Assembly (NCBI GenBank): GCA_031275645.1
Contig: JAISOL010000051.1
Coordinates: 1-33,308, forward strand
Direction: 5' to 3'
Source of the DNA: Deltaproteobacteria bacterium
GTDB lineage: Bacteria > Desulfobacterota > Desulfovibrionia > Desulfovibrionales > Desulfovibrionaceae
Length of the DNA stretch: 33,308 bases
This document shows positions 11,429-12,728 of the stretch, piece after piece (position 1 is the first letter of the stretch; each line of letters opens with the position of its first letter). The notes below the pieces were generated by a model, which worked only from the letters and a program-made list of their open reading frames with translations, was not told the DNA's origin and did no database searches. The position numbers and the translations under genes are program-made.

Positions 11429-12424
11429 CTAGCGCTTCGCGCCGAAAGCGAATTGAAGCTGGCTGCCCATGTTACCGCTCTCTTGATAATCGTAGGCATA
11501 GCCGACCACTTCAGTGGGCGCATTATTACTGTCGCCGTAATACAGAGCTCCAAAGGCGGCATGGTCATGATCCTGCAAAGGCAGATCCGCCTTGCTCCAA
11601 CCCGAGACAACGCTCTGGCTGCCGTAGGCTATGTCATAGCACTGCCCGCCGCCGCACGAGCCGGACGCCTGGCGCTGGCCGGAAACAGTCACATCGTACC
11701 AGCCGGAATCGCTGAACCGGGCAAACAGGCTTTCGTGCAGATTCCCGCCGCTCAGCGTGACGTCAAGCCTCGCGTCCCCATAAAGGTGCAAAGCATCAAT
11801 ATATCCAAATTCAGTCTTGGTGGGATCGAATTTTATTACATTGCCAGCGGCCTTGCCGGAAAAGGACATGTTCCCGTCAGGGATTGTCCCGCTCTGGGCC
11901 AGAGCGTACAGGTCTATCCTCTTTTCGTCATATCCTCCGAAAAAAGGTTCCACTCCGTCCCAGGTCGTTATGGTCGCTCCGCCGCCTGTTCTGGCAGTGG
12001 TCATATCCCTGTAATAACCGAAATCCGAATAGGCGAGGCCAAGGGAGGAGCCCAGCAGATGCACTTCGTGATGCGCTGTTACATCATACAGCACTCCCCA
12101 GGGAGACGCGGGATCGTCGTATTCTTCGGCATACAGCTCCGCCCTGGAGGCTACCAGGCCCTCGCTGTCTTCCCTGAAATCGGCGGAGGTAAACTCCACA
12201 CGCTCCACTTCATCAGGATCTGCTTCATACTCCACAATAATCTTATGCAGGCTGCCGTCGTTTTTCTTCACAACATATTTCACAGCTTCAAGGTCGGAAT
12301 ACGCACCGAAGTGCATCGGAATGTTCTCCGTCTCCGGAGCCGGCCCGTTTCCGCCGCCTCCTCCCAAACATGCCTGAAGCAAGACCAGCGGAAGCAGCAG
12401 GGACAATTTACGGATTTTCAGCAT
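11429..12424 (-). CDS. Slam-dependent surface lipoprotein, TbpB-like C-terminal barrel
   Basis: The 331-residue precursor has a lipoprotein signal: positive MLKIRK start, hydrophobic core, and lipobox LLQAC with the lipidated cysteine at C19, followed by a flexible GGGGGNG stretch. The mature part is acidic and rich in Gly, Tyr and Ser. The C-terminal third (about 200-331) has HLYGDARLDVTLSGG, FGALYYGDSNNAPTEVVGYA and a terminal FGAKR, the pattern of the small barrel in TbpB-like, Slam-exported lipoproteins. No ligand is evident; such proteins bind host or environmental proteins, metals or haem. It is expressed just before its Slam partner. Its 5' leader carries a terminator, a short ORF and a (CT)n tract, so expression may be phase-variable. 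GGAGG lies 7 bases before the ATG. Confidence 0.8.
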   Translation of the reverse strand: MLKIRKLSLLLPLVLLQACLGGGGGNGPAPETENIPMHFGAYSDLEAVKYVVKKNDGSLHKIIVEYEADPDEVERVEFTSADFREDSEGLVASRAELYAEEYDDPASPWGVLYDVTAHHEVHLLGSSLGLAYSDFGYYRDMTTARTGGGATITTWDGVEPFFGGYDEKRIDLYALAQSGTIPDGNMSFSGKAAGNVIKFDPTKTEFGYIDALHLYGDARLDVTLSGGNLHESLFARFSDSGWYDVTVSGQRQASGSCGGGQCYDIAYGSQSVVSGWSKADLPLQDHDHAAFGALYYGDSNNAPTEVVGYAYDYQESGNMGSQLQFAFGAKR

Positions 12425-12427
12425 TTG

Positions 12428-12462
12428 TATCCTCCGGGTGTAAGATGTTCCAAAGCGGGAAA
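12428..12462 (-). repeat. Leader repeat, part B (split copy)
   Basis: On the minus strand TTTCCCGCTTTGGAACATCTTACACCCGGAG matches the downstream half of the repeat at 13645-13728 (TTTTCCACTTTGGGACATTACACCCGGAG). In the other copy this half directly follows the TTGACAGGG half; here the two halves are separated by about 250 bases. It supplies the Shine-Dalgarno region of the lipoprotein gene. Confidence 0.6.
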
Positions 12463-12472
12463 GAAAAGCAAA

Positions 12473-12507
12473 AAAGCGCCTCCGGCGACAACCGCCGGAG
12501 GCGCTTT
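12473..12507 (-). terminator. Intrinsic terminator in the lipoprotein leader (possible attenuator)
   Basis: On the minus strand a perfect 15-bp stem (AAAGCGCCTCCGGCG, loop GTTGT) is followed by TTTTTTGCTTTTC. It is a textbook intrinsic terminator. It lies between the promoter at 12700-12728 and the lipoprotein start at 12424, with too little room after it for another good promoter. It therefore looks like an attenuator of that gene rather than only the end of the DUF1266 transcript. Confidence 0.8.
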
Positions 12508-12526
12508 CACAGGTTTAGAGTCGGAG

Positions 12527-12607
12527 TTAAGAGAGAGAGAGAGAGAGAGAGAGAGAGAGCAATAAACGTGCCGCTTTCCGGCCTGACCCGCTGAACACGC
12601 AATACAT
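12527..12607 (-). CDS. Upstream leader ORF through the (CT)n tract
   Basis: An ATG at 12607-12605, preceded by a G-rich GCGGGGG site 6-7 bases upstream, opens a 26-codon ORF: MYCVFSGSGRKAARLL followed by a Leu-Ser repeat encoded by the (CT)n tract, ending at TAA 12529-12527. Ribosomes in the present frame would stop about 20 bases before the terminator stem. Two extra bases (or four fewer) would shift the reading to a frame that stays open through the terminator and ends in TGA at 12420-12418, overlapping the lipoprotein ATG region (ATGCTGA). The ORF has no homologue I know. It is proposed as a regulatory leader peptide and translation is unproven. Confidence 0.4.
   Translation of the reverse strand: MYCVFSGSGRKAARLLLSLSLSLSLS
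12531..12559. repeat. Dinucleotide microsatellite, (GA)14-15
   Basis: This is an uninterrupted run of GA on the plus strand, 29 bases long, equal to (CT)n on the transcribed minus strand. It sits in the 5' leader of the surface lipoprotein gene, inside the leader ORF. Tracts like this mutate by slipped-strand mispairing in units of two bases and so change reading frame. Confidence 0.95.
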
Positions 12608-12699
12608 GCTGAACCCCCGCTCCCCGCTACAGGACAAACAACAGATTAAAGCCGGCAGGACTTGTCTTGCCGCCCTGGATTAGGCCTGCTCCGGCATTC

Positions 12700-12728
12700 T
12701 TTATAAAAGGCGGGAAATTCCCTGTCAA
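12700..12728 (-). promoter_or_regulatory. Sigma-70 promoter for the lipoprotein-Slam operon
   Basis: On the minus strand TTGACA (12728-12723), a 17-base spacer and TATAAA (12705-12700) give a near-consensus promoter. Transcription would start near 12693, about 86 bases before the leader ORF and 270 bases before the lipoprotein ATG. The -35 half belongs to the repeat that also lies at 13645-13728. Confidence 0.65.

Follow-up and report, generated by a model that had tools for sequence, protein, structure and literature searches.

A putative phase-variable transcription attenuator with a CT tract beside a sigma-54 element, found mainly in termite-gut Treponema and Desulfobacterota

In the attenuators of the trp, leu, and his operons, terminator formation depends on where a ribosome stands on a leader ORF. 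In the contingency loci of Neisseria, Haemophilus, and Campylobacter, slippage-prone repeats lie before or inside genes for surface molecules. The closest described systems are the pil1 and pil3 pilus operons of Streptococcus gallolyticus, where Danne et al. proved in 2014 that GCAGA repeats act through a leader peptide and a terminator (PMC3894217). Specifically, pil1 leaders that stop 4 nt before the stem or within it are already ON, and in pil1 mutants, out-of-frame changes that extend the leader into the stem raise transcription (PMC3894217). Here, we describe loci under putative control of the pil1 type, in which transcription of an operon would be set by leader translation and repeat number. 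The initial annotation of this DNA held that no switch of the same build had been described. That claim does not stand: pil1 and pil3 work alike, and the experimental proof in pil1 means that this kind of mechanism is already known (PMC3894217).

The locus lies in a window of 33,308 nucleotides, the whole stretch of DNA that we analyzed (contig JAISOL010000051.1 of GenBank assembly GCA_031275645.1, from a member of the Desulfovibrionaceae). Its parts, identified from the sequence and listed in the direction of transcription, are as follows.

12700-12728, minus strand: sigma-70-type promoter TTGACA-17-TATAAA for the leader transcript
12527-12607, minus strand: leader ORF with ATG at 12607, also supported by enrichment over shuffles in related loci
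12559-12574, minus strand: sigma-54 -24/-12 element GCGGCACG-TTTA-TTGC, with GG at 12572/12571 and GC at 12560/12559
12530-12559, minus strand: (CT)15 slippage tract of 30 bases, whose first C is the -12 position of the sigma-54 element
12472-12508, minus strand: intrinsic terminator (the attenuator), 16-pair stem, dG -32.8, with a T run to about 12462
12431-12435, minus strand: Shine-Dalgarno sequence GGAGG of the lipoprotein gene
12418-12420, minus strand: TGA at which the open (ON) leader frame ends; it overlaps the lipoprotein ATG as ATGCTGA
11429-12424, minus strand: the controlled gene, a lipoprotein of 331 aa with ATG at 12424 and lipobox LQAC followed by LGGGGG
10070-11425, minus strand: Slam-type surface lipoprotein assembly protein, Pfam PF04575 SlipAM over the barrel, E 5.2e-31

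The promoter boxes (-35 TTGACA at 12728-12723, -10 TATAAA at 12705-12700, spacer 17 bp) show 11 of 12 matches, and the site scores 11.5, compared with 10.5 for the best of 100 mononucleotide shuffles. The -35 box lies 169 nt from the CT tract. These coordinates agree with the near-consensus promoter of the initial annotation, and the short ORF that it started at 12607 does cross the tract. The leader ATG lies 48 nt from the tract, nearer than usual, and its Shine-Dalgarno sequence is weak. The CT tract itself was correctly recognized, its length of 29 bases being one short; likewise, the intrinsic terminator with its T run precedes the lipoprotein ATG as described, with 16 pairs in the stem rather than 15. 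The folding energy of the RNA spanning 12547-12425 is -41.7 kcal/mol (z -4.7).

Varying the number of CT units by script yields three classes of leader. With n = 12, 15, or 18, the leader stops directly behind the tract. The assembly has n = 15, and its 26-codon leader ends at TAA 12529-12527, 19 nt before the stem, so the annotated stop ahead of the terminator is correct. With n = 14 or 17, the leader stops 20 nt further on, at the base of the stem, which is the early stop that had been claimed for one unit fewer. With n = 13, 16, or 19, the leader remains open to the TGA at 12420-12418 that overlaps the lipoprotein ATG (63 codons at n = 16); one unit more or two fewer opens the frame through the terminator to ATGCTGA, just as the initial annotation had it.

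The lipoprotein has no match in Pfam or in a PDB sequence comparison. Its gene adjoins that of the Slam barrel protein, as in Slam-dependent surface lipoprotein systems, and the two genes are likely in the same operon. The gene layout matches such a system, and display of the lipoprotein through Slam is putative. Elsewhere in the window, a DUF1266 protein gene (E 2.5e-21) lies upstream of the switch at 12858-13574, and the ORF at 32857-33114, near the window end, resembles by eye a truncated transposase N-terminus.

We interpret this arrangement as a phase-variable transcription attenuator whose leader frame is set by CT slippage, and we give this reading a probability of roughly 0.7. The sigma-70 promoter would produce the leader RNA, and ribosomes would load at ATG 12607 and translate into the CT tract. 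Replication slippage would change the tract and shift the frame by 2 nt. At n = 13, 16, 19, and so forth, the ribosome would pass through the terminator stem and block it, polymerase would go on to transcribe the lipoprotein and Slam genes, and translation of the leader would end on the lipoprotein start. At n = 15, the ribosome would stop short of the stem and the terminator would form, leaving the operon mostly OFF. What we infer is that the promoter is used, that the leader is translated, that the terminator acts, and that switching takes place inside populations. The frame classes agree with the on/off state proposed in the initial annotation. By the pil1 precedent, leaders with n = 14 or n = 17, whose stop is at the base of the stem, could be partly ON, so there may be levels beyond these two.

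The locus resembles pil1 and pil3 in possessing a promoter, a repeat-bearing leader peptide ORF, a premature intrinsic terminator, and an operon for a surface structure. Specifically, a leader ORF with a start codon crosses a tandem repeat, an intrinsic terminator lies between the repeat and the gene, one repeat class stops the leader before the stem and another carries it into or past the stem, and repeat number varies between relatives. The two systems also differ. The streptococcal operons have GCAGA repeats at two loci in a Gram-positive host, whereas here the unit is CT and there are several loci per genome. No sigma-54 element is reported at the pil repeats, while here one is fixed at the tract. 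Furthermore, the open frame here extends beyond the stem, that of the window terminates on the start of the gene, and the OFF state is read from sequence. As in the trp, leu, and his attenuators, the position of a leader ribosome would govern the terminator. Unlike those systems, however, there is no amino-acid sensing, the frame is not conserved (0, 1, and 2 all occur), and control would be genetic, by tract length. The locus shares with contingency loci slippage-prone repeats at genes for surface molecules, but its repeat is in a separate leader ORF and would act on a terminator, not on coding frame or promoter spacing.

The genome that harbors the window (1.81 Mb, 89% complete) carries exactly four CT tracts of at least 10 units, the window's included, and the layout is identical at all four. 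Related copies with shorter tracts of 4 or 5 units are present too. Within the window, the tract of the switch is the sole CT tract of at least 5 units. This, together with the shared build of the four long tracts, contradicts a chance assembly of parts around an inert tract. A 20-codon open frame is common in a GC-rich genome, which is nothing specific, and joint conservation in about 100 loci among the matches listed also speaks against chance, an explanation we find barely credible. The further switch targets in this genome include a TRAP transporter (DctP), an enoyl-CoA hydratase operon, a third lipoprotein, and a second lipoprotein-Slam pair, whose Slam matches PF04575 at 9e-26 and shares 33% identity with that of the window; in a sister species, glycosyltransferases are among the targets. 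Two species of the genus to which the window belongs have the enoyl-CoA hydratase operon downstream of the switch (locus L011, 5068-5859; locus L032, 5995-6786). CRISPR-like repeats (GCGCCCCGCACGGGCGCGTG...GATTGAAAC) stand directly before the sister species' copy L032, upstream of 5513.

Scanning 84,980 species genomes for the sequence that precedes the tract yielded at least 115 stretches. Because the scan pattern forced part of the motif, locus counts are no census and figures refer to the matches listed; a tract-first sample served as a check. Among the matches listed are at least about 110 further loci, nearly all from termite-gut Treponema and Desulfobacterota, and nearly all of the record titles denote MAGs of Treponema/Spirochaetes and Desulfobacterota with names in termite-gut style. 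The WQ and WR records are MAGs from higher termites (PMC7024585), and the naming style points to a termite origin for the JAI records. The element was present in only two of 296 Spirochaetota genomes scanned. Among 99 relatives of the window genome, it occurred only in two of the same genus, apart from one chance match. A search of viral contigs for the element gave no match, and we reject a mobile phage element on that ground. One contig (L073), binned as Prevotellaceae, starts inside the element with 32 CT units and may be mis-binned.

At these loci, a leader ORF was counted when an ATG lay 45-125 nt before the tract and its frame was open into the tract. Among the matches listed, 57 of 58 non-redundant Treponema loci possess one (shuffles 21.4, sd 3.5), a count without L034, L073, and L110, which earlier group counts had wrongly filed under Treponema. 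Leader ORFs likewise occur in 18 of 19 loci from other Desulfobacterota among the matches listed (shuffles 6.2), in 7 of 8 from the window's genus (3.5), and in 21 of 30 from the tract-first sample (8.6); control sigma-54 sites without a tract have them in 4 of 16 cases (5.8). Judged by these comparisons, the predicted leader ORF crossing the tract is real. Its enrichment over shuffles and that of the frame pattern described below reject the idea that it is a coincidence around a sigma-54 promoter.

A full promoter (TTGACA-16/18-TAnnnT) precedes the tract by about 112 nt in 44 of 70 non-redundant Treponema loci among the matches listed (shuffles 2.2), with promoter-tract distances typical of each lineage. 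In the window's genus, five of nine copies have a TTGACA-like -35 box (at least 5/6) 166-170 nt ahead of the tract, and three of the nine pass the full -35/-10 test (shuffles 0.2). The Treponema leader ATG usually falls 6-10 nt past the -10 box, about 35 nt after TTGACA; the former spacing suggests that these leader mRNAs are leaderless.

Behind the tract, we scored a frame pattern in which the first frame to close does so within 12 nt and the next within 45 nt, while the last remains open for 85 nt or more. Such a pattern occurs in 53 of 93 loci among the matches listed (shuffles 11.7, sd 3.2) and in eight of nine in the window's genus (shuffles 1.1). Sense terminators (dG <= -12 kcal/mol) are present in all nine copies of the genus (shuffles 1.7, antisense 0) and in 12 of 20 from other Desulfobacterota among the matches listed (shuffles 1.7, antisense 0). 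At 27 of 40 terminators among the matches listed, exactly two frames end ahead of the stem and one beyond it. The attenuation by tract length proposed in the initial annotation gains support here, as its predicted parts co-occur far beyond shuffles at about 100 related loci spread over two phyla. At present tract lengths, 11 of 58 leaders among the matches listed are open, which makes ON the less common state in assemblies.

The Treponema loci raise a different reading, namely that the frame acts by translational coupling or Rho-dependent polarity and not through an intrinsic terminator. T-run terminators occur there in 15 of 64 loci in the sense direction and 10 in the antisense direction among the matches listed; most copies lack one. 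Because these terminators are few and not strand-specific, termination in Treponema would be of the Rho type or control would be translational, and the same frame logic probably operates there via Rho or via coupling. Furthermore, 36 of 71 loci among the matches listed have a frame that closes no more than 15 nt from the gene start (called by a simple script), compared with 17.3 in shuffles (sd 3.0), with 17 exact overlaps, and (CU)n resembles a Rho loading site. The genus of the window argues otherwise: every one of its nine copies has a strong sense terminator, the open frame in the other copies runs past the terminator and ends ahead of the gene, only the window has a frame end at the gene start, and the lipoprotein there has its own GGAGG. 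We consider this reading unlikely for the locus. The coupling to the gene start that the initial annotation had proposed holds for the window and many Treponema loci and fails for the other copies of the window's genus.

Tract lengths span 4-49 units in the related loci among the matches listed. A comparison among relatives shows that unit number differs in 29 of 34 pairs with 81-97% identical flanks, among the matches listed. For instance, the enoyl-CoA hydratase loci of two species are orthologs (84% identity); one has 19 units and an open frame (ON), the other 15 units and a closed frame (OFF). Of 114 tracts among the matches listed, 22 are no more than 250 nt away from the end of a contig, where 5.0 are expected; this excess fits, indirectly, mixtures of tract lengths that break assemblies. 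Targets carry a lipobox in 41 of 77 cases among the matches listed, versus 25 of 242 control ORFs (p 4e-14). At three paralogous Treponema loci (L170, L172, and L169 in genome G104), (CA)n replaces (CT)n beside the same sigma-54 core and leader, a variant found in only this one of 20 genomes searched.

Beyond the initial annotation, we found the Slam gene, the many copies, and a sigma-54 element that abuts the tract. TTGGCAYG-N4-TTGC, with GG and GC 12 nt apart, is the sigma-54 -24/-12 consensus and stands before almost every long CT tract of the related genomes, including those from the tract-first search. The window's CGGCACG-TTTA-TTGC carries GG at -25/-24 and GC at -13/-12 and has one mismatch to TGGCAYG-N4-TTGC, at the first base of TGGCACG. 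As a check against circularity, V(CT)10 alone was sought in 17 genomes; G stands before all but three of about 100 tracts, and 36 tracts that lacked an earlier consensus match have GG in register in 31 cases and TTG in 30, with variants such as TGGCATG. The element shares its sequence and spacing with sigma-54 promoters and differs from them in lying within a translated leader, with a dinucleotide tract from -12. The leader crosses the motif in frames 0, 1, and 2 at 40, 58, and 14 loci among the matches listed; by this comparison, the sigma-54-tract motif is best described as a DNA-level element, not a peptide. Synonymous-looking changes had pointed to a conserved peptide, LARFLLSLS. Two observations reject it: the motif persists across loci whose leaders read it in different frames, and position -25, where the base is not forced, nearly always has a G. 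Attenuation on Leu/Ser codons is also rejected, since frames are not conserved and targets are unrelated.

The attenuator model does not require a constant sigma-54 element, which counts against it, as do the short distance between the window's leader ATG and the tract, the weak Shine-Dalgarno sequence of that ORF, the few and strand-unspecific T-run terminators of Treponema, and the minority of open frames at present tract lengths. Could the sigma-54 promoter be the operon's true promoter? Transcription would start in the tract (the predicted +1 in the window is near 12547), tract length would alter only the 5' end through start-site choice, reiterative initiation, or leader length, and the leader ORF would be incidental. 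Consistent with this idea, the -24/-12 spacing is that of the consensus, the element abuts nearly all long CT tracts, and rpoN is present in the genome itself (PF04552, E 3e-63) and in 17 of 18 other genomes that carry the element. Moreover, the same core without a tract forms ordinary sigma-54 promoters before normal genes of these Treponema genomes, and sigma-54 has been linked to genes of the cell exterior (PMC3162934). The idea nonetheless leaves the leader ORF and frame pattern unexplained, and the strong downstream terminator in all copies of the genus would halt such untranslated transcripts; we judge it improbable. By eye, the ordinary promoters at L171, L173, L174, L176, L181, L182, and L186 share an upstream inverted repeat like TAATTCCTTnTAnTAnAAGGAATTA, likely an activator site; none was noticed at the tract loci.

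A sigma-54 start in the tract followed by the terminator would also yield an RNA of about 80 nt in the window, with a CU-rich 5' end. Such an RNA could be a regulatory sRNA whose target pairing is tuned by the tract. This possibility, which we hold to be very remote, predicts no leader ORF, and the change of the unit to CA in one genome, with the leader frame kept, favors a function of the frame. An Rfam search gave no match at the gathering score, and a known RNA family is rejected accordingly.

Alongside the attenuator, the sigma-54 promoter, which overlaps the end of the leader, is a putative second input: it could provide a start site under induction or affect slippage. A sigma-54 transcript would be without the leader yet would still reach the terminator. 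Possible reasons for the locking of the tract to the sigma-54 -12 position are a second promoter that responds to induction, a roadblock, and an open complex that promotes slippage. In the last case, which we consider a long shot, the open complex (melted from about -12 to +2) would expose the dinucleotide run and raise slippage.

In the literature covered, which includes few subscription journals, we found nothing on termite-gut phase variation or on sigma-54-linked repeats. As far as we found, the dinucleotide unit, the many loci per genome, the spread across phyla that appears restricted to termite guts, and the fixed sigma-54 element are new. What was known from a single genus of cocci now looks like a family-wide regulatory device with at least about 120 loci. 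Among the matches listed, these loci lie mostly before genes for lipoproteins or exported proteins, almost only in termite-gut bacteria, and in both Spirochaetota and Desulfobacterota; these targets and this distribution suggest strong selection for surface variation in the niche. Possible selecting agents include phage, attachment to protists, and the host or neighbors. Phase variation of a catabolic operon, that for enoyl-CoA hydratase, in the same genome would be unusual. Finally, the fixed sigma-54 overlap could tie an environmental signal to a genetic switch. If the open complex does promote slippage, signals acting through enhancer-binding proteins would set the switching rate of the attenuator, and contingency loci would possess an environmentally tuned mutator common to phyla of one gut ecosystem.
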